From Morinoia aosen (Eukaryota; Arthropoda; Malacostraca; Amphipoda; Talitridae): DNA of 64,000 nucleotides. Location of the stretch: contig CM059569.1 in NCBI GenBank assembly GCA_030386875.1, forward strand, positions 46,353,842-46,417,841. Reading direction: 5' to 3'. Both the position numbers and the translations under genes were made by a program. Below are positions 12,830 to 56,800 of the stretch, piece by piece (the stretch's first letter is position 1; each line of letters opens with the position of its first letter). The notes below the pieces were generated by a model. The model searched no databases, had not been told where the DNA came from, and was given only the letters and a program-made list of their open reading frames with translations.

Positions 12830-13185
12830 CAGGAAGAGCATGCCTCGTAAAACAAGAATTATAAAACTTCATAATCCATGAAGTATAAAATCACATCAAA
12901 CATAAAAAGTAAAATTTAATGATATAGGAAGAACAAAACCTCATATTACGAGAAACGTAAAACCTCATGTTTCGAAAGAGTAAGAACTCATGATTCTTGA
13001 ATTGGACAACCTCGTACTCCAAGAAGCGTAAAAACTTCTGCTCCATTAACAGCAAAAACCCATGACGCAGGAAGCATATAACCTCACGACACAAGACGCG
13101 TAAGGCACTCATGCACCATTAGGATTAAGAACCCACAACCCAGGAAGCATATAAGCCCATGCTCCTAGAAGGATAAAACCAGGCC
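12830..13185. repeat. Degenerate tandem repeat, about 28-30 bp
   Basis: Roughly eleven diverged copies of a motif like AACCTCATGnnnCnnGAAGCGTAAA follow one another, right beside the 3' end of the small-HSP coding region. The minus-strand frame at 12891-13112 is the translation of this repeat. Confidence 0.65.
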
Positions 13186-13275
13186 CACAGGGTACGAGAG
13201 CGTCACTGGTATGAGCCTGACGCGAGACACGGGGCGACGCAGCTGTGCCAGGCATAGGAGGCGCTCGCGCCGGGA

Positions 13276-13347
13276 TCACAGAGCACTCTTCCTCTCCGTC
13301 TTGAGGATGGGCACTTCCCTCTCTGAGGGCTTTGGTGGCTCCGGCGG
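13276..13347 (-). CDS. Small HSP exon 5 (C-terminal tail)
   Basis: 24 codons including TGA, starting after [27 protein letters not shown], then TERKSAL and stop. The V-P-I triplet is the C-terminal anchoring motif of small HSPs. A likely branch point (ACAGTAACAC) and a short pyrimidine tract sit between this acceptor and the 7-bp minisatellite. Confidence 0.92.
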   Translation of the reverse strand, partial: PPEPPKPSEREVPILKTERKSAL

Positions 13348-16300
13348 CTGAGGGGAGACACAGTGTTACTGTGTTGCGTGTTGGGTGGTACGTGTTGCGT
13401 GGTGCGTGTTGCGTGTTGCGTGGTGCGTGTTGCGTGGTGCGTGTTGCGTGGTGCGTGGTGTGTGTTGCGTGGTGCGCGTTGCGTGTTGCGTGGTGCGTGT
13501 TGCCTGGTGCGTGTTGGGTGAGACGCTTTGCGTGATACGTGTTGCGTGGTGCGTGTTGCGTGTTGCGTGGTGCGTGTTGCGTGTTGCGTGGTGCGTGTTG
13601 CGTGGTGCGTGTTGCGTGTTGCGTGGTGCGTGTTGCGTGTTGCGTGGTGCGTGTGGCGTGTTGCGTGGTGCGTGTTGGGTAAGACGCGTTGCGTGTTGGG
13701 TGAGACGCGTTGCGTGTTGCGTGGTGCGTGTTGTATGGAACTTGTTATGGTGGTACTTGTGTTACATCGGCATATCTTACCGGAACACTTAGCACTGAAA
13801 CAGTGTAAAAAATTAACTAATTCTTGTGTGGAGAGTTATTAATTTAGATTTTTTGATACAAAATTTCTGACAAAAAACTTAAGTTAATTGGTGTGATAGT
13901 GAAAAATACAATCTAAAATCGCAATTTTTTCAATTTCTTTTAAGCCATTTTCATTTTATCTGTACTAAAGCTTACATCTAAGAATCTGGGTAACATCTTG
14001 TACATAAAATTGGGCTGTGTAAACAATCATAGTGAAAGACTTCCATTCTTAGTTGACTGCAAATCACTCCCTAAAGTAACGAGCAAAATAATATTTTAAA
14101 ACGTACCTGAACTGAGTTGCTCACCAGGTCAAAGAAACAATTGTTTCTTTGACCCAGGAGCACTTCGGACCCAGGTGTTTCTTTGACGTAGGATTTACCA
14201 ATGAAGCACTCCGTTAGAAGTTCAGGAATAACTGAATCGATCTTCCCTTTATTTAACCTGCTCATCGGTTTTCTACGAAAATATATTTAAAAAATTATTT
14301 TTCTGAGACATTAAGGGTCTTACCTTGCGAGGTGTCTCTACGGTGAGCACTCCATCTGGTGACAGGGACGAAGTTACCAACTCGACCATAGCGTCGTCAG
14401 GCAGACGGTATTTCCTGCACGAACAGACAGGTTTGTTTCACCAGATCTACCTAAGCGTCATTAGTCAGACGGTATTTCCTGCACGAACAGACAGGTTTGT
14501 TTCACCAGATCTACCTAAGCGTCATTAGACAGACGGTATTTCCTGCACGAGCAGACAGGTTTGTTTCACCAGATCTACCATAGCGTCGTCAGGCAGACGG
14601 TATTTCCTGCACGAACAGACAGGTTTGTTTCACCAGATCTACCTAAGCGTCATTAGTCAGACGGTATTTCCTGCACGAGCAGACAGGTTTGTTTCACCAG
14701 ATCTACCATAGCGTCGTCAGGCAGACGGTATTTCCTGCACGAACAGACAGGTTTGTTTCACCAGATCTACCATAGCGTCGTCAGGCAGACGGTATTTCCT
14801 GCACGAGCAGACAGGTTTGTTTCACCAGATCTACCATAGCGTCGTCAGGCAGACGGTATTTCCTGCACGAGCAGACAGGTTTGTTTCACCAGATCTACCT
14901 AAGCGTCATTAGTCAGACGGTATTTCCTGCACGAACAGACAGGTTTGTTTCACCAGATCTACCTAAGCGTCATTAGACAGACGGTATTTCCTGCACAAAT
15001 AGACCGGTTCGCTTTTTCATCAGATTTACTATAGCGTCGTCAAGTAAGAAAGTTTATAATAAAAATTTTAAAATTAAAGACATTTCAGTACACTACTGAT
15101 GAATTTTTATTACTTTCATGGCAGGTGCACAGTTAATGAAATGTGTAATTTAATTTTTGAGATAGATGGTTAATTTAATGGCTTGTAAGGGAGAAAAACA
15201 TAGTTTGCAAGATTACAGCACATTGTTTCAACCTTTCAGGCGCTGACCACATCTTATAATAACAATTTAGCTACCAGCACGATTCGTTAATTAAAATTCA
15301 ATTTGAAACGGAACTCCTTCTCACTGGCGAAGCTGAACGGGATGTCAAGTTTTCGAGACAATTGGTAGAAATTTATGGAATAAATGGACGGAATTGAAGT
15401 TGACAATTGACGGAAAAAGGCAACTTACAAACATTCCGAGATGCATGTTCCAACTTCCCTCATGACTTTCCAGAGATAGATTGACTATGCAATTCAGGAG
15501 GTCATTTGCATCATTTTGAGAATGATTTTCCAAGTCTACACCTGACTCACCTGACCCCAACAACGCTAAAACAAGTCCACAGAAAGTTGCTATGAATTTA
15601 AAAAGAAAACACTTGCAGCCCTTTCCGCATCCTATTCCAACTCTTCACATAATCTAATTGATACTATGAAAGCTGAGGCGAGATAACCTGATATGAAGCC
15701 ATTCTGACCTCACGAAATGTCTGGAAATAATCCCGTGCTCGTCCACTCGCTCTTCGTGCTTGCCTTCGACTTCGAGCAGTTGACCTTCTTGGCTCACCCT
15801 CACCTTGAGTTCGTCGGGCGTGAACTGGGGCACTTCTATGCTCACCTGAGGCACGAAAAACAAAACGACTGATTAGAGCAGGCAACTCAAGTGCTCACTG
15901 AAACTGAGACACAGCACTTTTGGTTCAAGAGCGAATAAAAATAAATTCTCAAACATCGTCTGTTCTAACAGAAATTCTCTTTTTGTAGAAATTTTGAGAG
16001 GCAACTCAACTGCTCTCTGAAACAGAGACCTTGGGCTTAAGAGCGAATAAAATAAATTTTCTAAAATAGTTTAGTCTGCCAGAAATTTTATTTTTATGAA
16101 TATTTTGTTCTGTCGGATCGCTGTCGCTTTTATTACCTTCCTTGAAATTCTCTCGTGAGTTGTTAATATTATTAAGCGAGTATTATTATCGTTACCCTTT
16201 TGCAATGAAAAGCATTTATCCCGCACAAAGTCAGGAGCTTTTTAGATTTACATTATGTTGATCAATATTATGCATAGAGTGAAAAAATCTGTCAAAAGAT

Positions 16301-19127
16301 GGGAAATCGGAAACACATTCATGAAACGATTTGGTTCTGACGTCGTCCATGTTATTTAACAGGCATGCTATTTATGCTAATTTTCGAACCATTTTCATTT
16401 ACTTGCCGAGAATTTTTCAGGTGTAGGATTAACACTTGACACTCCGGACTTCTGTATGGGCCCTCGCCTGCTGCGGTGGTACAAGCTCGACGTGCCCGCG
16501 TTGGTGTCTTCGGGAAACAGTCCGCCGCCAAAGTTCTGAACCGTTGAATGGATTTTTGAAATAAGTGAGTGGGGAAATTTTTAGAAATAATAATAATAAT
16601 TTGACGATTACATTCTCTTATATTGTAGTTATTGGTTTTATCATCTACGAAATAAGCCTTAAAATGAGACATTACTTCGGTTTCAATGTTAGATGTAAGT
16701 GAAAGAAGCACAAAGAAAAGCAGAAAAAGAAAAAAAATCGAAGGTAATAACATAGTGAACCGCATTTTATGAATTATTTTGAAAAACGGGTAGGTCCTGT
16801 GAAAGAATGATGTGGATAGTAATTGAAAAATATCTTACATTGTAAACTAAAATTTATCAGAAATGTTTCAATTAAGTCATAGCATGTAGTAAGTTTATAC
16901 TTCAGTTTCTATACACAATAATCGAAAAAAAATATCTACGACCAACGTGCTCATTCTCAAGAATATATGAGAAAATTTTACATCGTAAGGACATATTTCG
17001 TTAAATTGGCGACTGGGATGGAGATATTCGTTATGTTTCTGAAACACATATTCCTGCTCGAATGTTTTTGCGCAGAAAGGCAAAGAAGCGCTAATTTTGG
17101 GTGTCAACACAGAATGTTCCTTATGGTCAACAATAAATCTGGACTGTTTCGTATTCATAACATAGATTCCTTCCTATTAATAATTCTTTATAATTCATCA
17201 AAATCCTTCATACATCTTCAAAATTCATCTTCGTATCCTTCGTATTCATATTCATATTCCTTCGTATTAATAACATATGTTCCTGCTCGAACGTTTTTGT
17301 GCAGAAAGGCAAAGAAAAGTTAATTTCGCGTGTTAACACCGAGTGCTCCTTAAGCCCATCAATATATCTGCACTGCTTTGTCTCCCACACACCCCTTGAC
17401 AGATGGAACAGAGGAGAATTTAATAATATCCTCGCTAAGTGTCAGAGGGAAGGCCACCTAAATCATTTCTTACGCTCAGGGTTTGACTCGAAAAATAATT
17501 AGTGGGCTCACCGCACATACCGAGCATAAAAAGCACTTAAAATGAACATTCAACCCTGTCGCAATATTGCATAAATTAGGATCTGATTCTACAATTCAAA
17601 GGTGAAACGTGCTTCTCCTCAATTTCTTTAAATAACATTTATCGCCAAGAAAGACGCTGACTAATGCTCTTGTGAACCAAAAATTTGAGAAATAGTTCAA
17701 TGAACATGACACTCAGCTGCTTCTGAGCTCCTCCTCCACTTTTTATTTTGAACACGTGTTGGGACCTTAATTACCGATCTGCCTGAATTCATGGCCATAA
17801 CTTTTTGCACAGTACATGACACATTTTGGCATTACGAATTTACACACGGCTTTCTATACATTTTAGGATAAATATGTAAGTAAGACTGCTGAAAATGCGG
17901 GCAATCGCATTACAAAAATGTGAAATAGCTAAAAATGGTGAGATGTTTTAAGAAAAGATCAGCAATTTTTTTCAAACATCCGTTGAGTTTGCCCGCGTAT
18001 AACTGATTGCGGATGGCAGAGTTCAAGTTACTGAATACGTCCGTTCTTCGAGAACTTTTAACAACTCTTTTCATCTCGAACAGCGTGAGGTTATCTCAGA
18101 CGATGTATCGGGATGTATCGCTGCCTCCACTCACGGAGTGTAAGCCATAATTTTTCGCTACGAAACTTGTTAAAGTTGCCCAAAGTTTACAGACAACCAT
18201 TTGCAGCTATACATAGAGGTAGGTTAAATGTTCCGATCGATTCCATATCGTACTTGCCAATAGAAACTAGTGAAAAATCAATACGAGTATTCAATTGAGG
18301 TTCAATTACAGAATTTGATTATCCATTTCTTCAAGCCCTTAAAAAAAGAAAAATATGAAAATGTTATATTTCATATTTCTTTCCCCATTCTGCGTCACAT
18401 CAAACATAGTTAGCCGTTATGCAGCATCGAAATTACGAATAATTGCAATTACCGTCCGTTCATGTCATTGCTCCCGCGTGTGTGGCCGCTATCACAATTG
18501 CATGTTTTCTTGAATCCAACAATCACATCATACTAATGTTCCCATAACATATTCACCATCATGGCAAATTAATTTATGATTTTAGTTTCCCATAATGATT
18601 TTAAAACATATTAGTTATAATGACTAATTAACATTATGGTTTTAGGCTTCCATAATGATTTTAGATAGCACAACCAACCTACAGTTCCTGAAAATACTTT
18701 AAACTTGACTCTCACTGAACTTAGGTTCCCTGATTTTAGGTTATACCACTTCCATTCCCTGAAAGTCCTTTTAACTTGACTCTCGGTTTAAGGCTCCCAT
18801 AAATATTCTAAATTGCACAACCTCCAGTACCTGAACATCCTTTTAACTTGACTCTCGCGTCGCACAACGTCGTTTTCTTGAGATATTTTTAACTTGACTC
18901 AGAATACATTTACCCTCCCATAATGATTTTACGTTACACAACCTCCATTCCCTAAAAATCCTTACAAGCCCCACCTGATCGAACAGCTTAGTGGGCACAC
19001 TGCCCTCCCATACCGGCAGCGGGCCCGCGGAGCGGCTGCCGCCAGTGGCGGGTCTGTCCCCCCAGAAGTCGCGCTCCAGGTCCCTGAAGAACGGGTCCCG
19101 GCACAGCAGCGGGATGTGGCGACTCAT
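13276..19127 (-). CDS. Small heat-shock protein (alpha-crystallin family), five coding exons
   Basis: ATP-independent holdase chaperone of the alphaB-crystallin / l(2)efl type, expected in the cytosol as large oligomers. CDS = complement of 18975-19127, 16407-16535, 15709-15845, 14324-14414 and 13276-13347, giving 193 aa; all splice phases fit. The N-terminus MSRHIPL plus DPFFRDLE is typical of metazoan small HSPs. The alpha-crystallin domain covers about residues 90-170 ([48 protein letters not shown]). The C-terminal tail carries a V-P-I version of the IxI motif at 182-184. The conserved Arg equivalent to human alphaB R120 is residue 140, and its codon is split by intron 3. Introns: GT-AG for 1, 3 and 4; intron 2 is best read as GC-AG. 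A CCAG acceptor 6 nt before the ATG suggests a further 5' UTR exon. Three introns carry minisatellites. The family call is firm; the subfamily is not. Confidence 0.93.
13371..13733. repeat. 7-bp minisatellite (GTTGCGT / GGTGCGT), about 50 copies
   Basis: Tandem GTTGCGT and GGTGCGT heptamers with a few variants (GTTGGGT, AGACGCG). It is strongly G/T-rich on the plus strand and stands out from the AT-rich surroundings. It lies in small-HSP intron 4 and starts only about 23 bp from the exon-5 acceptor. The Cys/Val/Arg-rich open frames here are repeat artefacts. Confidence 0.95.
14127..14154. repeat. Perfect 28-bp palindrome in intron 4
   Basis: GGTCAAAGAAACAA followed directly by its exact reverse complement TTGTTTCTTTGACC. 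A further partial copy (GTTTCTTTGAC) lies at about 14177-14187. It lies in small-HSP intron 4. Confidence 0.9.
14324..14414 (-). CDS. Small HSP exon 4 (second half of alpha-crystallin domain)
   Basis: 91 nt, starting after CTGTTCGTGCAG; the first G completes the split Arg codon. It reads [13 protein letters not shown], then [16 protein letters not shown], and is followed by donor GTAAGA. Its first part and its acceptor are the source of the 64-bp tandem array that runs upstream into intron 3. Confidence 0.95.
14401..15042. repeat. 64-bp exon-boundary minisatellite, 10 acceptor-bearing copies
   Basis: The motif AGACGGTATTTCCTGCAC starts at 14403 and then every 64 bp exactly to 14979 (ten copies), with a degenerate partial unit after that. 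On the minus strand each unit is the splice acceptor TGTGCAG/GAAATACCGTCTG or TCGTGCAG/GAAATACCGTCTG plus the start of small-HSP exon 4. The copy at 14403 is the real exon edge; nine copies lie in intron 3. Two unit types exist, one matching the exon (CCTGACGACGCTATG) and one changed (ACTAATGACGCTTAG or TCTAATGACGCTTAG). Confidence 0.97.
15043..15708. other. Remainder of small-HSP intron 3
   Basis: Unique-looking intronic sequence between the 64-bp array and exon 3. A 72-codon minus frame at 15345-15563 shows no homology I recognise. Confidence 0.5.
15709..15845 (-). CDS. Small HSP exon 3 (first half of alpha-crystallin domain)
   Basis: 137 nt, starting after TTTTTCGTGCCTCAG with [15 protein letters not shown] and ending HFV plus AG of a split Arg codon, followed by donor GTCAGA. 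It contains the strongly conserved GKHEE and DEHG motifs of the alpha-crystallin domain. Confidence 0.96.
16407..16535 (-). CDS. Small HSP exon 2
   Basis: 43 codons, starting after CAACGGTTCAG with [10 protein letters not shown] and ending EKFS. The frame fits exon 1 in phase 0. Ending the exon at TCG before GCAAGTAAATG gives a phase-0 junction EKFS/VSIEV that aligns gap-free with other small HSPs. No GT donor nearby gives both a correct phase and a good alignment, so a GC-AG intron is inferred. Confidence 0.87.
16536..18579. other. Small-HSP intron 1, proximal part
   Basis: AT-rich intron. It contains a diverged direct duplication of about 115 bp (17047-17160 and 17279-17390, both starting TTCCTGCTCGAA) separated by TTCGTATTCATATTC-type simple sequence. 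No gene is seen. Confidence 0.55.
17047..17390. repeat. Pair of about 115-bp direct repeats
   Basis: Copies at 17047-17160 and 17279-17390 share TTCCTGCTCGAAnGTTTTTG, GCAGAAAGGCAAAGAA and a following stretch with a GTnAACAC motif. They are diverged and lie in small-HSP intron 1. Confidence 0.75.
18580..18965. repeat. Imperfect tandem repeat, about 75 bp, 4 or more copies
   Basis: Diverged copies of CCCATAATGATTTTA, then CACAACCTCCATTCCCTGAA, then TCCTTTTAACTTGACTCTCG lie in intron 1, ending right beside the donor of small-HSP exon 1. Confidence 0.75.
18975..19127 (-). CDS. Small HSP exon 1 (N-terminal region)
   Basis: 51 codons from the ATG at 19127 to GATCAG, followed by the donor GTGGGG (phase 0). 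It encodes the variable N-terminal arm ending in KLFDQ; FDQ followed by a glycine-rich N-F-G start of exon 2 is usual in this family. On the minus strand a GTTGTTGTCCAG acceptor lies just before the ATG (AG at 19135-19134), so this exon is probably not the first of the transcript. Confidence 0.92.
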
Positions 19128-19139
19128 CCTCTCCTGGAC

Positions 19140-22100
19140 AACAACAAAATTGTGGGTTTTTCAACTGCTTCTTTCATTGTGTTTAGTTTGAATTTGTTTT
19201 CCAAGCCTGGCCGCTCGCTTTTATCTGGCCATTAAGGGTTTATCAACTGCTTTTTTTTGTGTTTAGTTTGAATTTGTTTTCTAAATTTGGCTGCCTTGTT
19301 TTGTCTTACAAACTTATCCCAGCTTGTCCTTGTGACTTGTATCAGGCCATCTAGGTCTCGTCGTTTGCTCATGTCCACCTTGTTCTTATCTTCCATATTT
19401 GGCCACTTTAGTCTCGTCTTGCGTACTTGTTTACTTTATCCTTGCCTTTCAATCTTGTCCACCTTGTCCGTGTCTTCCAAGCTTGTCCACAGCTTTCGTA
19501 CCTGTTCATTTTGTCATTGTCTTCCTCGCTTGTCTCCCTTGTCCTTAACTTTCGTGTTTGTCAACTTTATACCTGTCTTTTCTCAGTCTTTTTCCCACAA
19601 TGGGCATAGCTCATAAATATAAGTAAAACCTTTCGGTTCTACACTTAACAATTACAAGTTTCTACTCCGCCATACATGCATATTATACGCACTGCCATCA
19701 GAAATTTTTCAATGCCGTTGTGCAAACTAACTTCTGTGCCATGCTTCCAGGTTTGCCTTAGCGGCTGTCATTTTCTCACCCTAGAAATCTTGCGTCCGTG
19801 AATCGTAGGCTTTTGATGCTCCAGCTGACGTAAATCAGAACGTTTACACCAGCTTATGAATTCCCACTGAGATACGTACGTTCGTTAACTTAATTAGCTT
19901 GCCTTCAAGAACCTGAATTTCACGACGTTCTAGTCGTCCACATTGCCTTATTTACCTCGCTAACTGTACATCTGAACCGAATGCTTGCTTTTAATTAGTG
20001 AAGTGAAGCTCTGCGAGTGTCTGAGTACATTATTGGTGTGTTTTTGTCTGTGTTCTTGTGTTTGGATCTCGATACGCCAGGACAACAGCGCGCAGCCGAC
20101 TTCGTCTTGTAAGACTTAAACAGGTCACAAAAATTATTGATACAAGCTATTTAGCTTCCATTTACTACCTATTTTACATTATTTAATATACACATATAAT
20201 AGTTATTAAAATTTACTACAATATTTGTACCAACATGGATGTTCATTATTTGTGATAAGTAGCGTGAGGGTAATTTCTGTACAAGATGTTCACGCTGAAC
20301 TGAAGATGGTTCCTTGCTACTTTCCGCAAGATATGTTTTGATAAGACAGTAGTTGTACAAATTAGCTGAAAAAATCTTCAAGACAATGCAGCATTGCTTA
20401 ATTAACTTCTCGTCACTCAGAATATGGATTAAAATAGGCAATAAAATGACAATTTTGATTGTCATTCATTGAAAATCAATTTCGTAGCTACACGTAAAGA
20501 CTGCTGATTCTGAGTACAAGCGAATTATTTCGATGTTGTGCAATACTTAGTCACTGAAACAGAATTGATGAATAACTTGGCAAAGTCATTATTGTCATGG
20601 AAAGAAGTTAAAGAGACGGCTTTTGGACATCTAGAATTACTTCCAACTCCATTTGTACGTACTTCCTTGAAATAAGCTGCATTGATTTTCCACAAACGTC
20701 CGTCAACATTTCGAAGCATGTACCAATAAGCTACTAGCTTACTCTTAAGTCACTCAAGTTAATTTTCCTGTCATGACCTCTGAAAAGTTCAGCCAGTCCA
20801 GAACCTAAATTTCAGTGCCAGAACCCAAAAATAAAACGTGCCATCCTCTTCCTTTCATGCACGAACCTTGACATGAAAAAAAAACTTGTTATCTTGAAAG
20901 AGATTCTCCCACCAACCGGACGGATTCAACCAGTTTTTGGATTGGTTCCTTAAATGTTGTTATGCCCTTGTCGGTGTCACCTCTCAACTCAGACCATAAG
21001 TTTTCATGCTCTCCCGTGCTAAAAAGTACTTTATTGAAGACAAACAGCCTCAACTGAGCATTAATCTTCAATATACTCGTAGGCGTATGAGCCCTGTTCC
21101 TCGTATAGCAAACTTTCAATAACGTGTTTCTTGTACAAACATATGGTCACACTGTCACAACTGTGGCAGTCAAACGCTGTCAAAGCTATGTTTGCTCACA
21201 GCATTAAGATTTCCTCTCTGTACGATATACTATCCATTTCAAACTCGAATTCTAATCTACATTTCCGTGTATTTGTTGCCTCGCTTTAACTAGATTCTGT
21301 CACTTGATTCTGGGGAACTGTGATATTTTCTTCGTATCTTGGGTGTGTGTATTCAACGCTGAGTCAACCTCGTCTAAGACGTTGTTTATCAACATTTTGC
21401 CCCACGGCCAAAAGCACAGTCACCCCTAAAATTAGAACCTCATTGATTGTTTTCCACACTTTGAGTAAAGAATTTGCCTGCTATTATATGGAATGGAACG
21501 AGCTATTATATGAAATAGAATGCAAGGGTCACATTTAAATAAGTACAATGTTTTCAAATTTTAACTGCTTGAATAAAGAAAATTGTACCATAAATACCCA
21601 TTCCCTTTGAAAATTTCCTGATTAATCTACGAGGTAAAATCTTCTACAGATCCATGAGCACAAGAATGCAATACTCGCACGGTAAAGCCATGTCCTAAAA
21701 GTAGAGTTTTATAAATGAGACACTCTCGTTATCGACGAACATGAAAGCCTGTGAGAGCATTAGAGCGAATCTAATTCGCTTCAACACTTTTGGCGAGCTT
21801 CATTGCAGGATAAATGATCCGCTGTCCTTTGGATTCCATTAACGCATGAAAATGGTGTTTCATTCCATTATAGAATGACTTGGGGTGTCTAACTAAGGGA
21901 TAACTATACCTCATCATACAGAAGTTTTGGATTAGAAGCCAATTCAATTCTTTACTTTACGCACTCGTTAAGTCAAATTCAATCTTGAGAAAAATAACTC
22001 ATGTGAAATTCGTTTTTCGGTTAACACAGAAATTGAGTATATTTAAAGGGTAAATTCATGCTTGTTCAATCAGATATTGCATTATTATTCCAGTTCGCAA

Positions 22101-35534: not shown

Positions 35535-37262
35535 TTTAATGGCTACTTGCACCCGCTTCAAATAACATGCTCTCAAAAAATTCATGAAATTATTCACAAT
35601 TTGTCTCTAACAAGAGCGTTTTTCAATAAATCCCTAAGACAACGTGAGCCTCCTAGCCCGTCGTCGATTTTCTCTACAGTATCAAACATTCAGAACCTAA
35701 CCGAACAGCTTTTTGCTTTAAATTCACATATAAGTTCTCAAGACCTTGCACCTGTGGTACCTGCTAGTATCTCTTGTGAAATCGACTCCAATTGTCGAGA
35801 ACCTTACGACACTTTGCTGCTAGGTGATAATATCCTAAGCACGATCAGAAGAAAGGACATCGATCGCTCGTGCTGGATCAAAACTGTTCCATCAGGGCGC
35901 TTCGATGACCTTCTCCATACTGTAAATTGCATGCCTAGATTTAAAAATTATATACTAAGTTTTGATGGTCTCTGCCACTCGCCCTCAGACCTTGCTCGAA
36001 TCAAACAACAAATTGTAAGAAAGTACGCACTTTCTCGCATTTATATTGCCAATGCTTGCAGTGCAAACGAATTCAACAAAGCGAGGCATTTTTGCAAAAA
36101 CCTGGGTTTAAACTTGATTCAATTTCAAACTTACCCAGAAAATGAAAATGGTGACGCACTCAATAACTTTCAATGGCCTCGGACCCAGGAAGAGAACTTC
36201 TGTTTTCTTCAACAACTTGCAATGAAATCAACATTGCGAATCACCGTGCCACATTGTCCTCGTTTCAACAAATGTCAAGCAATAAATGGAATTGTAGGTC
36301 ATTCCAATGAATCGAAAAATTCACGGAATGAGACAAATAGTCTCACATTAGACTTTCAAAAAGAATATAAGCCTATGCATATCACTGCACATGGTACACC
36401 AAATCCTTCAAAATTGATTGCGACATCAAGCAGAGGTCTGAGTAACTCACTCGCCCACTGCATGAGGAACGTAAATAAGCCTGAGCCTTTCCCTGATTCG
36501 ATCTCAGACAAATATAATGTCAGTACGAAAAATAAATTTGCGTTACTTGCTTCCGACACAAATAGTGATTGCGACATGCCCTCCTTTTCAACCAATTCTC
36601 AACTTTCCAGTGAGTACGCAGGAACCAAGGAAAGTCAAGCAAATACCGATATTCAAAACTATTCCAAAGAAAATCAAATTATTCGAAAAAAATCTGATGC
36701 CTCTGCCGGGCCTCCGTCGAACGACCAAACTAATACTGCTACCGAAAAACCAACAGTGAATCAAATCTGCACACGCGTTGCACACACACTGGACGACTTA
36801 AAACGATCGCTCAAATTGGAGCCTGCTTACACTGTAGGTGACGGACACTGTCTCCTCCACGCCGTAACGACGCAGCTTGCTTCACAACAAAAATCGAAAT
36901 GGAATTATATATCTCTGAAAAAAGCCATCAAAACTGAGAGCTCCAGAAACAAGGACCAGTATGCAAAATTCGTTGACAAGAACAGTGGCAGTTTCGAACA
37001 ACTCATCGATAAATACATCGATAGAAAAGTCTTCGATCACGCAGTTGGAGACCTCATACCCCAAATACTTTCTAATGTAACGAGAACACCAATTCACGTA
37101 TTTGATGAAAGAGACAATGGGATTTGGAAGACGACAATCTCCCCTACATCAAATGCTCTGATAAACTATCCTCCGGTAAACATACACCGGAAACAGGACC
37201 ACTATAGCGCCCTCTTGAAAATGCGTGATGAAAATCGTGTTGCTCCCTCCCCCATTTTGTGA
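35535..37262 (+). CDS. LINE ORF1, second segment: SGNH-like plus OTU protease domains
   Basis: Open from directly after the TAA to TGA 37260-37262 (575 codons). Numbering from the TTG at 35547, residues about 85-230 resemble an SGNH/GDSL esterase, the ORF1 esterase known from CR1-type LINEs, but the nucleophile block reads LLLGDN instead of GDS, so hydrolase activity is doubtful. Residues about 420-565 form an OTU-type cysteine protease domain: GDGHCLLHAV with Asp432 and Cys435, the VGDLIPQIL/IHVFDE block, and HYSALL with His552, so the catalytic triad is intact. The middle (about 250-400) is low-complexity. Calls rest on motifs alone. Confidence 0.75.
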   Translation, partial: FNGYLHPLQITCSQKIHEIIHNLSLTRAFFNKSLRQREPPSPSSIFSTVSNIQNLTEQLFALNSHISSQDLAPVVPASISCEIDSNCREPYDTLLLGDNILSTIRRKDIDRSCWIKTVPSGRFDDLLHTVNCMPRFKNYILSFDGLCHSPSDLARIKQQIVRKYALSRIYIANACSANEFNKARHFCKNLGLNLIQFQTYPENENGDALNNFQWPRTQEENFCFLQQLAMKSTLRITVPHCPRFNKCQAINGIVGHSNESKNSRNETNSLTLDFQKEYKPMHITAHGTPNPSKLIATSSRGLSNSLAHCMRNVNKPEPFPDSISDKYNVSTKNKFALLASDTNSDCDMPSFSTNSQLSSEYAGTKESQANTDIQNYSKENQIIRKKSDASAGPPSNDQTNTATEKPTVNQICTRVAHTLDDLKRSLKLEPAYTVGDGHCLLHAVTTQLASQQKSKWNYISLKKAIKTESSRNKDQYAKFVDKNSGSFEQLIDKYIDRKVFDHAVGDLIPQILSNVTRTPIHVFDERDNGIWKTTISPTSNALINYPPVNIHRKQDHYSALLKMRDENRVAPSPIL

Positions 37263-37265
37263 CTA
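37260..37265 (+). promoter_or_regulatory. TGA-CTA: candidate stop-codon read-through site
   Basis: The ORF1 stop TGA is followed directly by CTA, the best-known leaky stop context (as in several read-through genes of animals and RNA viruses). The frame stays open on both sides. ORF2 has no in-frame ATG until 37452, which lies past the first endonuclease motif, so read-through is the simplest way to make a complete ORF2 product. Function is inferred. Confidence 0.55.
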
Positions 37266-40226
37266 AATAACAGTGATCAAATTGAATATGAAGCTGAAAT
37301 CACAAACAATGAACGCGGCAATAAAGACCTAGAGACGAATACTAAATGCCCTGCTAGACCTAAAAAATGCAATAACTCCACTAAAGATCTGCCTATTGAG
37401 GTAAATAATATCAAAATATTGCACATAAATGCTCGCAGCCTCAATGGTAAAATGGATGACGTAGGAGTAATGTTGATCACTAACGATATCGATATTTTAT
37501 GCGTATCTGAAACATGGTTCGATTCACGAGTCGAAAGCTCATATCTCAGCATTGCCGGGTACAAATTGTACCGTTATGACGGAGTCAAGAGTAAGAGAGG
37601 TAGCGGTTCATGCATTTTCATCAAAGATGTCTACTCTACATCCTTAGTTCCGATAAAAGAAAAATGCGAAGACATAGAAATGGTTTGGCTCAATGTTCAA
37701 GTAAACAAACAGAAGTCTTTCATTATCGGCAGTCTTTACAGACATCCGTCAGCATCTCTTCGTCCAACATTAGATTTCATTGAAAATACGCTTAGATCAA
37801 TCTCTGCAGCCAAAAAGTCTTTCTATGTTTTCGGAGATTTTAACGTGGATCTGACAAATAAAAACAATCAGCTAAGCAAGATGCTGCACAGACTTAATCT
37901 TTCTCAAATGGTCCAAGAACCAACGCGAATTACCAACACTTCTAAAACTCTTCTTGACCTAGCAATTACCAACAATCCCCAAGCAGTACTCAGCACAGAA
38001 ATCTTACCGTCCTTTTCTGATCACCATTCGGTAGAATGCCAAATCAATATTGCAAAAGAGAAACAGAAATCTAGTTACATTACATATCGCATGAAAAACC
38101 ACTACTCCCCTGAAATATTTCAAGAAAAGCTATTAGACAGATGGAGTGAATTTCAAGGCATGGAAAACACCGATGATGTCAATCTACAAGTTTCGCTTTT
38201 CAACGAAAATTTCGTATCAGCTCTTAACGAATGCGCACCTTTCACTACGAAGAAAGTTAAGCCAAGAATTTCTAAATGGATAACAGATGAGATAAAACAT
38301 TTGAGCAGAGCTAAAAGAAATTTGCAGCGTGAGTACAAACTGAATAAATCAGACAGTACGCGTCGAAAATTATATAAAGATCATGAGAAGATCCTACGAA
38401 GAAAAGTTAAGGAAGCAAAACGGGACTACTTCCACAAAGAACTCTTGGCGGCAAAACAAAACCCTAAAAGAACTTGGGAAATCATTAGAGAAGCTGCTCA
38501 GTATAAAAATTCAGACTGCAAAAGCACTTTTGACAACCCCTCAGAAATGGCGAATGACTTTAACACTTTCTTCTCAAAAGTTGGCGAAGATGTTTTCAAT
38601 GAAGTATCCAGGACAGTTTCAGACACATCTACAGAGGCAAATCTGAGCGATGTTTCATCCCCAAATAGTAGCAACAAGTGGAGACCAAAGCCAGTTAGCG
38701 TCATAGAGATACGAAAAATCTTATACTCACTAAAGAATACTAAAGCGACTGGACATGATGGCATAAGCCTCCAACATATTAAAGACAGCTTCCCTGTCAC
38801 AGCACCCTTTATTCGCTTGATAATAAATACATCTATAGTCACAAACAAGTTTCCCGATCAATGGAAACTATCCATAATTAAGCCATTACATAAATCTGGT
38901 GATATCGACATAGCGTCAAACTACAGACCAATCAGTCTCCTGCCTGTTATGTCCAAAATATTAGAAAAAGTAATAACAAACCAGCTCTCGTCTCACATAG
39001 ACGAGTCACATCTACTGCATCGCAATCAATATGCTTACAGGAGGAATACCAGTACTCAGGACGCCCTGTTAAACATAACAAAAAAAATTTACAAAGATAT
39101 TGACCAAAAAAAATTAACTCTCTTACTATTGCTTGATCTCTCCAAAGCTTTCGACAGTGTTGAGCATAAGAAACTTCTAAAAAAAATTTCAAACCTCAGA
39201 ATAGACACTCAGTGGTTTGAAAGCTACCTACGAAACCGCTCTCATGCAGTGTGCTTGAATAACAAAATGTCATCATTCATACCAAATAACTTTGGCGTTC
39301 CTCAAGGTTCAATCATCGGCCCACTCCTATTTTCAATTTTCATCAACGATTTCCCCACCATGCCGGCAAACACAAAAATCTCAATGTATGCTGATGACGT
39401 ACAAATTGCCATGACAAGCTCAACAGCGGATTTAACAGAAACACAAGCCAACGCTGAAAACCTTCTGAGAAATCTGAAATTGTGGTATGACCATAATGGC
39501 CTCAAACTTAACGCAAGTAAAACGCAATGCATTATTTTTGGATCACAGAATGCGACTGAAAATTTACCACCATTCCAGCTAACATTTGGAGACGATACAA
39601 TTAAACCAGTCGATAAGGTTAAAAATCTGGGTGTTTGGTTTGACAAAAATATGACTTTCAATTCACACGTCGAAACAATGTGCAACAAAATTAACGGAAC
39701 CTTAATGTTCTTTCATCGTATAAAGAACACACTTGACGAAAAATCTAGATTATTAGTGATTCAGTCTTTAGTTTTATCGCGTCTGGACTACTGCAGTCTT
39801 GTGTGGGGAGACTTACCTAAATGTCGTCAGGAAGAGTTGCAAAAATGTGTAAACTTCGCCGCCAAGGTGGTATGCAAAGGAAATTTTAATAAATACGATC
39901 ATGTCACCCCTCTTTTAAGAAAACTCGACTGGATCCCAATACCGAACAGATTCATGATCCAGAAAGCTCGACGAGTATTCTCCTCTCTGTACCTCCCCCA
40001 AAGTAATGCAGAGGTGGTAAAATTTTTTCCATCTAATATCCCAAACGAAAGACCAAACCGGAGGAACGATGTTTTAGTCAGTTACCGTTCATCTAACGTG
40101 GGACAAAAAGCTCTCTCAGTTTCTGGAGCTTTTTTGTGGAACAAGCTTCCCCAGCATATCAAAAACTCTAAAACTGGAAAAGAATTTAGAGTAAATGTGT
40201 CACGTCATTTTACATCTCTGTCATAG
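37263..40226 (+). CDS. LINE ORF2: APE endonuclease and reverse transcriptase
   Basis: 987 codons open from the ORF1 TGA to TAG; the conserved part starts at about 37413. It nicks target DNA and reverse-transcribes the element RNA. Numbering from the TTG at 37419: endonuclease motifs HINARS (Asn4), SETW (Glu31), LYRHP (Tyr107), GDFNVD (Asp140, Asn142), LLDLAIT (Asp180) and SDHHSV (His202/203) are all present. RT motifs: NYRPISLLPVMSKILEKV, LDLSKAFDSVEH (Asp579), VPQGSIIGPLLFSIFINDF and YADDVQI (Asp659, Asp660). The C-terminal part has the conserved LSRLDYCSLVWG segment. No RNase H domain is seen. All catalytic residues are intact. Confidence 0.95.
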   Translation, partial: LNNSDQIEYEAEITNNERGNKDLETNTKCPARPKKCNNSTKDLPIEVNNIKILHINARSLNGKMDDVGVMLITNDIDILCVSETWFDSRVESSYLSIAGYKLYRYDGVKSKRGSGSCIFIKDVYSTSLVPIKEKCEDIEMVWLNVQVNKQKSFIIGSLYRHPSASLRPTLDFIENTLRSISAAKKSFYVFGDFNVDLTNKNNQLSKMLHRLNLSQMVQEPTRITNTSKTLLDLAITNNPQAVLSTEILPSFSDHHSVECQINIAKEKQKSSYITYRMKNHYSPEIFQEKLLDRWSEFQGMENTDDVNLQVSLFNENFVSALNECAPFTTKKVKPRISKWITDEIKHLSRAKRNLQREYKLNKSDSTRRKLYKDHEKILRRKVKEAKRDYFHKELLAAKQNPKRTWEIIREAAQYKNSDCKSTFDNPSEMANDFNTFFSKVGEDVFNEVSRTVSDTSTEANLSDVSSPNSSNKWRPKPVSVIEIRKILYSLKNTKATGHDGISLQHIKDSFPVTAPFIRLIINTSIVTNKFPDQWKLSIIKPLHKSGDIDIASNYRPISLLPVMSKILEKVITNQLSSHIDESHLLHRNQYAYRRNTSTQDALLNITKKIYKDIDQKKLTLLLLLDLSKAFDSVEHKKLLKKISNLRIDTQWFESYLRNRSHAVCLNNKMSSFIPNNFGVPQGSIIGPLLFSIFINDFPTMPANTKISMYADDVQIAMTSSTADLTETQANAENLLRNLKLWYDHNGLKLNASKTQCIIFGSQNATENLPPFQLTFGDDTIKPVDKVKNLGVWFDKNMTFNSHVETMCNKINGTLMFFHRIKNTLDEKSRLLVIQSLVLSRLDYCSLVWGDLPKCRQEELQKCVNFAAKVVCKGNFNKYDHVTPLLRKLDWIPIPNRFMIQKARRVFSSLYLPQSNAEVVKFFPSNIPNERPNRRNDVLVSYRSSNVGQKALSVSGAFLWNKLPQHIKNSKTGKEFRVNVSRHFTSLS

Positions 40227-53314: not shown

Positions 53315-53402
53315 CTGCTTGTCATCATGGCTTTAATGTGGCCATGATTCTCCGGGCTTCTATGAGCTGCTGAAGTAGAACCTTGATTTGACAAATGGAG
53401 AG
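53315..53402 (-). pseudogene. Tandem duplicate of the COMMD4 C-terminal coding end
   Basis: An 88-bp copy of 53413-53500, 98 bp downstream in gene orientation. On the minus strand it still reads LSICQIKVLLQQLIEARRIM, then ATLKP and a stop, in one frame. Compared with the exon it has four conservative changes (V/I, R/K, I/V, T/A) and four silent ones, and no break. No strong splice acceptor is visible in front (the best is ACAAGCAG at about 53416), so it is either an alternative last exon or a decayed partial duplication. Confidence 0.75.
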
Positions 53403-53432
53403 AATCTTGACTTGACCAAACGCTGCTTGTCC

Positions 53433-53808
53433 TCATGGCTTCAATGTGGTCATAATTCTCCGGGCTTCTATGAGCTGCTGAAGTAAAATCCTGACTTGGC
53501 AAATGGAGAGATGAATGGAGGATTTGTTGCTGGGGGTCTCTAGAGTGGAAGGAGTAAAGGACAGGATGGCTACAGGCTCTATTTCACTCGCTACTTGAAC
53601 TCCTCTCACAGTGACGGAGGTCTTCATGTTGCCACTGCAGCAGTTGATGCCGTCGTTTTCCCGCAACTTTGCAAACATGGCCGGCTGCTTTTCTGCGTAC
53701 ACTTTGGTGATGGCTGCTGCGTGTTCTTGGGGAAGGCCGAGCTGCTGCAGCTCTTGGTTCAGCACATCACACGGCACCTTGGCACTGGTGGCACTGATCA
53801 AAATGTAC
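53433..53808 (-). CDS. COMMD4: COMMD4 exon 2 (COMM domain)
   Basis: Starts after TTTTGTTGCAG with G completing a split codon, then YILISATSAK, and ends TTLKP and TGA. It includes the linker and the whole COMM domain with its leucine-rich C-terminal helix. The last 88 bp are duplicated just downstream (53315-53402). Confidence 0.94.
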
Positions 53809-56800
53809 CTGCAACAAAACTATGCATCAGTATAAAAAGCAAAGCGAAAATCACTACATATGGTCATTTTTATTAAAAATGATCAAATAAAACTGAACGT
53901 TTTGGACAAACAGTCCATCTTCAGCAAAAGCTCTGTAAAACAAAACCAAAAGAGGAAAAATTAATTCCCAGATGAAGTATTTCTAGAAGTTTAAACTTTG
54001 AAAAACACAAACAATGGTGAAAAACGGTAAAAAATAAGAGGTAAAGGAAACCTCTCAAGCTTAGAAGCATCAATGCTGGAGTTATTTTAGATTTTGCACC
54101 AGTATAACATGAAGCTGGTATGTACCTTCTGGATTGAATTAGCTAACCTATGGGAAGTTTACAACTTTTTATGGTTATGGAAACTAATTCTTGTAAAATT
54201 TCCACAAACAAATAGATAAGGTACTTCCCCTATGAATTTTGGATGACAGTCAACACAATAAATAAATTTTCATGAAAATAACTTGAATAGTCAAGATATA
54301 ACTCTTCTTTTTTATACAAGCAGCTATCAATTTAATGGGAACTTTCAAAATAAAAATTATACAGCATGAAAAACTTATGCAATTCAAAAAAAATTTTAGC
54401 AGCTTTCTTTGGAATTAAGAGACAATCTCAGTGAGAGATATCAACATTTGCTACAAATTCTGGTTCAAGGTGCAAGTGACAAGACAGCCATGGCTTCTTG
54501 AAAACAAATTTGGCTGTTCTGATAAGATCAATGGGTTGTATCATCACTTCAGTAGCAACAAGTGACACATGCTTGAACAACTTTGTGGATTGATTATAAA
54601 TTAGTTTTAGCTGCCCTTTACCTGAAAAAAGATGTTTAAGGAGAGGAAGGATAACAAAACCATTTGGTATGAATTTAAGGGAACATGGAATCTATGCCCA
54701 AAGGGTGTTCCCACAAAGGGTCTTGTGCACATAGAAACAGTAAGATAAGAAGGAAGGTTATGAAACAAGATAAAAGTTCAAGAAGAAAGTTAGAGGGGCT
54801 GAAAAACAGGACAGCAGTGAACAGAAAAAAGATGGTCCTTAACATAACATAAAGCATTTTATTTCAACTAAAAGAGGGCCTACCTAACTCTCAGCTCAGG
54901 CCCTCATACATTTTCCCCCAGGGAGTGCTAATTCCCACAGATACGATAATTGTATCCATATGAGGGGCATATATTTCTAAAACCAATCCATTGCTTCCCA
55001 AATTATGTTTGTATGCACTCTCTTCCTATAACTTATTTTAGTGTACCAGAATCATTTGTCAATGCTTTTAAATGCTTATTTTTCAAGGTGTTCCAAAATA
55101 TTTTCATTTTCTAATAAATCTTCATGTGCAGACAATGAGAAAAATCAAAACATGTTTAAAGCAATAACCTTCCCTTTTATTATGTTTCTTCTTCGGTACT
55201 TGCTATAAAAATCTATTCTATTCCATTATATTGATTTCATTTACTGATCTTTCTTTCATTTTATCTAAACATATCACAAATTTGTAGCCTAATACTAATC
55301 ATAATTTTTCCATAGCAAGTTTTAAATAATATCAAACATAATGTCTAATGCTAATGCACATACAACAAACCTTGATACTAACAATAAATAAAATAGCAAG
55401 GATAGTCGCTTTTAAAAGATCCATTATCAGTTAGTCGTTTAATAAATAGAAGAACCTAAAATGATATATAAAATTGAACGTTTCGACTACAGGAGTCATC
55501 TTCAGCATTAACAAGATCTATGGAAGACAAAAAATACATTTTATTGAAAATAAGTGCAATAGTAAAAACAAATAAAAAGAAGTGGACGAAAAAGGATGGA
55601 GAACAATACTAACATGCTATTAACAGAGGGAATGACGATTCAGTTTCATTTAAAATAGGTTTGTCTTTCATGATAAAAAGAGATTCTAAAATACGAAGGT
55701 CTGATTGACTAGATGTGGTTCCTATTTATCTGGAAGTTGTCCAAGCGGACTAGCTGGTCGCACTTCTCGGCATGAGTGCGTACCGAAGAGTGAGGGGGAG
55801 AGGCAAGGAGCTTCCGAACCAATAATCCCCTTGCCTCTCCCCCTCACTCTTCGGTACGCACTCATGCCGAGAAGTGCGACCAGCTAGTCCGCTTGGACAA
55901 CTTCCAGATAATAGGAACCACATCTAGTCAATCAGACCTTCGTATTTTAGAATCTCTTTTTATCATGAAAGACAAACCTATTTTAAATGAAACTGAATCG
56001 TCATTCCCTCTGTTAATAGCATGTTAGTATTGTTCTCCATCCTTTTTCGTCCACTTCTTCTTATTTGTTTTTACTATTGCATTTATTTTCAATAAAATGT
56101 ATTTTTTGTCTTCCATAGATTTTGTTAATGCTGAAGATGACTCCTGTAGTCGAAACGTTCAATTTTGTATATCATTTTAGGTTCTTCTATTTATTAAACG
56201 ACTAACTGATAATGGATCTTTTAAAAGCGACTATCCTTGCTATTTTATTTATTGTCAGACTTTGCAAAAAGCAAAACTTAGATGTGTGCAGAAACCTTGA
56301 TACATTACTTGATGTTCCTCATTAGATAACATAAGTTATTTTAAGTTTTCCTTAGCACAACAATGGTGTTCCAAAGATGGGTAGGAGGGAAGCACCATTT
56401 AGAATCACGGTGAAGAAATGGGGGATATATGCACAAGGTGTGTTCTCATACAAGATCTCCTGAGCATAAAATGGCAGGTAAATAAACCAAGTTTCTGAAA
56501 CAAGCAAAAATATGAAGAAGAAAGCAATAGGGTCTGAAAAACACCACAGATGTAAACTGAAATAAAGACTATCTATAACAAAACAGAAAACCTCTTCTGA
56601 TTCAACAGAAAGAAGGCCTACTTAGCCTTCAAATCAGACCCACACCATTTTGACACTGAGAGCCACAATTCCCATAGGTACTTAATGTTCCACATTCAAC
56701 ACAAACTAAAATATTACAAATCACACAACACAAAGTTTTGTTACATTACAAATTAACAACCATTTTGAATAGCTCATTGAAAATTGAAAGACAAAGCAAA

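Follow-up and report, generated by a model that had tools for sequence, protein, structure and literature searches.

Tandem repeats that span an intron-exon boundary have been described in amphioxus as 'mirages', and the splicing of two of the genes that carry them, BflGb6 and Adh3, was reported to be undisturbed (PMC3087553). The same was stated for mirages of this type in TnC and, by the authors' inference, in PGBD5 (PMC3902484). It was also pointed out, in PMC3087553 itself, that the amphioxus repeats might act as cryptic splice sites and so yield alternative transcripts. In BflGb6, the repeat comprises the 3′ end of an intron and the 5′ part of an exon, numbers 6 units in one haplotype and 3 in another, and is described as having a homogenised interior and diverged boundaries (PMC3087553). 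Human internal tandem repeats in segmental duplications likewise have minisatellite units at exon-intron boundaries, where they can modify the structure of a gene and bring cryptic splice sites into use; according to the same report, alternative transcripts also exist for most (66%) of the intron modifications (PMC2812944), a figure that argues against treating arrays of this type as silent in every case.

The locus examined here lies in a window of 64,000 nucleotides (the whole stretch of DNA that was analysed) from the amphipod Morinoia aosen, in which a minisatellite repeats the intron 3/exon 4 junction of a small heat shock protein (sHSP) gene. All four structural features of a mirage that were looked for were found (4/4): a boundary-spanning unit, minisatellite-like length with tandem copies, splice signals together with an authentic copy retained at the gene junction, and a homogenised interior with a diverged edge. 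The amphioxus mirages of Adh3, BflGb6/BflGb9, TnC and PGBD5 are, as described by their authors, also minisatellite-like and boundary-spanning, and many of them have splice signals. BflGb6 is the closest known case: its unit, too, joins the end of an intron to the start of an exon, and its reported turnover pattern, homogenised inside and diverged at the edge, is common to both. The unit lengths differ (64 bp here, compared with published values of 150–160 bp in BflGb6 and 10–72 bp in Adh3), as does the host, a crustacean with nine decoy acceptors as against a cephalochordate; the sHSP array is known from the sequence of one assembly alone. The human repeats, as reported, are differences between paralogues in segmental duplications, whereas the sHSP array matched only its own locus in the assembly.

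Among the titles and abstract beginnings covered, mostly from journals open without subscription, we recognised no boundary-spanning minisatellite in an arthropod; the amphioxus and human cases were found. The array is a structure of a known kind and, within the literature scope searched, the first instance found in a crustacean, extending the mirage phenomenon, familiar from amphioxus, to a crustacean with a repeat-rich genome. We consider it likely that the array is a near-neutral boundary minisatellite of the mirage type, that the functional mRNA is made from the proximal acceptor, and that leak products are removed by nonsense-mediated decay (NMD).

The sHSP gene and the array at its exon 4 acceptor

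The five exons of the sHSP gene joined in frame to give an intact product of 193 aa when 14414 was used as the exon 4 acceptor. The frame holding exon 3 gave a Pfam HSP20 match (E=1.6e-7), and the HSP20 features looked for were all present, namely the alpha-crystallin domain, an intact frame and the conserved C-terminal V-P-I motif. The results thus confirmed the original prediction in its identification of a small HSP gene and of the exon 3/4 junction. By position, 180/193 residues were identical to those of a Trinorchestia longiramus protein, and splicing to 14414 therefore makes the conserved protein. Exon 4 was identical to T. longiramus at 31/31 residues (tblastn), the first of which, the junction Arg, was partly read from intron bases. 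Among the best matches listed, the nearest with a species name came from two amphipods, T. longiramus and Hirondellea gigas, in line with a talitrid amphipod as the probable host. AlphaB-crystallin aligned with residues 43–172 of an earlier sHSP model, the C-terminus of which was wrong.

An exon 5 reading KTDEQVK-stop directly after the exon 4 donor was rejected; the conserved C-terminus of the relatives led to the exon 5 given in the table. The introns are of the GT-AG kind, except for intron 2, which starts with GC (TCG/GCAAGT, at 16401–16412) and is a GC-AG intron. A predicted Hyalella azteca protein (P0010), available as a gene model only, diverges from the other relatives directly after exon 3.

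Table. Positions, in the window, of the sHSP exons and the adjoining repeats. A slash marks a splice junction.
Feature	Position	Strand	Remarks
sHSP exon 1, coding part	18975..19127	-	donor CAG/GTGGGG
sHSP exon 2	16407..16535	-	donor of the GC type, TCG/GCAAGT
sHSP exon 3, N-terminal half of alpha-crystallin domain	15709..15845	-	donor GAG/GTCAGA, phase 2
Decayed distal partial unit	14991..15044	-	B-like at five diagnostic sites; forms the upstream side of the 14990 acceptor
Nine decoy 64-bp units, intron 3	14415..14990	-	acceptor copy and at least 13 nt of the exon 4 start (B units 30 nt); A, n=5; B, n=4
sHSP exon 4, real copy	14324..14414	-	acceptor GTGCAG/GAAATACC, donor CAAG/GTAAGA
Second minisatellite, intron 4	13371..13733	-	363 bp, 7-bp units (GTGTTGC on the plus strand); stops 23 bp short of the exon 5 acceptor
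sHSP exon 5 and stop	13276..13347	-	23 residues, then stop

The sequence CAGACGGTATTTCCTGCAC occurs ten times at 14402–14978 (14402, 14466 and so on to 14978), and 9/9 spacings are exactly 64. Tandem Repeats Finder (TRF) reported the array at 14390–15009 with a period of 64, 9.7 copies and a score of 1030. On the minus strand every copy reads GTGCAG/GAAATACCGTCTG, which is the exon 4 acceptor with the exon start. The first exon base is 14414 in the real exon and 14478, 14542, 14606, 14670, 14734, 14798, 14862, 14926 and 14990 in the decoys. This count of copies and spacings bore out the ten-copy exact repeat, with nine decoys in intron 3, that had been predicted at 14401..15042; the array is present there, and the far end of its decayed unit lies two bases beyond that span, at 15044.

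When the first 192 bp of the array were compared with the 1.99-Gb, 29-contig assembly, four matches were obtained, all within the array, in a search that may under-count repeats. Tandem repeats are described as a cause of assembly errors (PMC6868369), and an array wrongly expanded or collapsed by the assembly was considered. However, the contigs are of chromosome size (29 for 1.99 Gb; 57–105 Mb in the 16 sampled), the array is about 640 bp long, and its units can be told apart by six variable columns, and we regard such an artefact as very unlikely.

Unit types and turnover of the array

The array has a homogenised interior, with 6/64 columns varying among the nine full decoys, and a diverged edge unit. 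Two unit types had been predicted to alternate, but the actual order, from distal to proximal, is A A B B B A B A A, followed by the real, B-like exon. Type B (4/9) equals the real exon over the first 30 nt, and the five sites that set type A (5/9) apart from B all fall within 14 bp; the changes in type A create an in-frame TAG and convert CTGAC to the branch-like motif CTAAT. The chance of such clustering was 0.006 for five random sites and 0.03 if the five may be any of the six variable columns. The clustered differences, together with CTAAT and the stop, could be read as a mark of selection. That selection favoured the A variant, with its CTAAT and immediate stop in 5/9 decoys, as a poison acceptor in competition with the real one, such that array length and temperature would set the sHSP output, is very improbable; if true, this chaperone gene would carry an array of 3′ splice sites that is tunable by copy number.

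The decayed unit aligned with type B at 43/51 bases with one 3-nt gap (gapped alignment; score 74, compared with a maximum of 41 in 1000 shuffles), and no acceptor of its own was seen within it. Since this edge unit is B-like at all five sites, B is probably the ancestral type, and A would have arisen inside the array. The real exon matched the B unit at 30/30 nt, then at 7/14 over +31..+44 (shuffle p=0.033) and at 4/20 over +45..+64. Because the likeness falls off in this manner beyond position 30, the original duplication perhaps included 30–44 nt of the exon. Each unit had been thought to carry the first ~45 bp of exon 4, a length that needs correction, as exact identity stops at 30 bp.

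In the mechanism that we favour, the intron 3/exon 4 junction of an intact sHSP gene would have been duplicated in tandem to give the minisatellite, and unequal exchange or slippage may later have expanded it and homogenised its units, each of which would constitute a complete 3′ splice module. It could also be argued that the birth of an intron or exon is in progress, with one of the central units on its way to becoming a new exon of 28 nt; a model of this kind is stated for the amphioxus globins in PMC3087553. In the A units, 28 nt do lie between an acceptor and a donor-like site (AG/GAAATACC...CTTAG/GTAGAT). Nevertheless, the donor-like site fits 6/9 positions of the donor consensus, as does the real exon 3 donor, whereas the exon 4 donor fits 8, and 28 nt break the frame; such a birth appears very unlikely.

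Decoy acceptors and the predicted products of their use

When exon 3 was spliced in silico to the decoys, five of the predicted products read HFVRKYRL(S/T)NDA-stop, and the other four ran for 26 codons after the Arg before reaching a stop. The original prediction, in which five decoys read K-Y-R-L-x-N-D-A-stop and four ran for 26 codons, was thereby reproduced, and its claim that every decoy acceptor yields a truncated protein agreed with the early stops obtained for 9/9 decoys. Truncation just after a conserved Arg fits as well: residue 120 of the alphaB-crystallin chain, which we take to be the disease residue R120, aligns with the Arg whose codon spans the exon 3/4 junction. The premature stops of the predicted products fall 127–639 nt before the exon 4/5 junction, the last one, so leak products should undergo NMD.

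Over -50..+30, decoy 14606 and the real acceptor have the same sequence. Seven other decoys differ from the real acceptor by 1 to 10 bases over that stretch, and the outermost decoy, 14990, differs by 32 bases in an ungapped comparison, a figure inflated by the 3-nt gap. Because decoy 14606 matches the real site over 80 nt, position or more distant sequence must decide the choice of acceptor, and on the same grounds the decoys could account for a sizeable part of the splicing. With ten like acceptors in a row, the locus is a natural splicing experiment. RNA folding of one 870-nt stretch, run to see whether the decoys are hidden, gave results in opposite directions, from which no conclusion is drawn: the real AG was the least accessible of the ten (0.01 unpaired; decoys 0.02–0.35), and the real pyrimidine tract was the most open (0.53; decoys 0.28–0.51).

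Poison exons and alternative acceptors coupled to NMD are a known class, and use of any sHSP decoy would likewise give an early stop, a likeness that is one of sequence. The array might be such a device, in which controlled decoy splicing, governed by copy number or a splicing factor, sets the amount of functional sHSP, for example under heat. That all nine decoys have acceptors resembling that of the real exon and lead to early stops is consistent with this, as is the clustering of the A-type changes; moreover, a branch-like motif conforming to the yTnAy consensus lies upstream of each acceptor (CTAAT or CTGAC at -47 in 9/10, other yTnAy matches in the tenth). The stops, however, are to be expected of a 64-bp unit that breaks the frame and are by themselves no sign of design. 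A scan of 13000–19800 for heat-shock elements gave no triplet and 8 two-part matches, none of them in the array, and the comparable amphioxus arrays are reported to leave splicing undisturbed (PMC3087553, PMC3902484). Taken together, we find a poison-acceptor function quite unlikely.

According to the mirage-type reading, the functional mRNA would take the acceptor that adjoins the exon body, and exon definition by the neighbouring exon 4 and its donor would favour 14414. Decoy splicing would then be leakage, the early-stop products of which would be cleared by NMD. The gene probably tolerates the array and does not use it as a switch. The original prediction had left the choice between a poison array tuning chaperone output and a near-neutral expansion; its sequence basis (the junction, the nine decoys and the truncation) stands, and the near-neutral half is the better supported.

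Tandem-repeat background and other features

In 200 kb of the genome, sampled as 20 hand-picked pieces of 10 kb from 16 contigs, tandem repeats with a period of at least 12 made up 8.8% of the bases, or about 6.7% without one piece that is half repeat (L018), and arrays of at least 5 copies made up 5.5%. The corresponding values for the window were 5.6% and 3.0%. A tandem-repeat content of 6.18% has been reported for the T. longiramus genome (PMC7062882). With tandem repeats this abundant in the host genome, it is not astonishing that an array should have landed on a splice site.

No exon copy was seen in the intron 4 minisatellite, which takes up much of that intron and was read by eye. Two successive sHSP acceptors, those of exons 4 and 5, adjoin minisatellites. 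In a survey of 16 HSP20 loci other than the sHSP gene of the window, with 1500-base flanks, the listed arrays overlapped the matched stretch, to which the count refers, in 0/16 loci; several loci had arrays in their flanks. On contig C3, HSP20 loci (L034–L037, L039 and L040) fall into two groups of three, one at 44.60 Mb and the other 1.39 Mb away at 45.99 Mb; as the two groups share like spacing, a segmental duplication or an assembly duplicate is suggested.

Elsewhere in the window, non-LTR retrotransposon-like frames occupy 35535–40223: the one at 37263–40223 contains a reverse transcriptase (RVT_1, E=6e-39) and an endonuclease, and the frame preceding it (35535–37259) gave a match to OTU-like cysteine protease (E=1.7e-7). 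On the minus strand, a frame at 53436–53819 encodes a COMMD HN domain (COMM_HN, E=1.1e-8), and a tandem duplication at 53315–53511 (108 bp, 1.8 copies) overlaps this frame.
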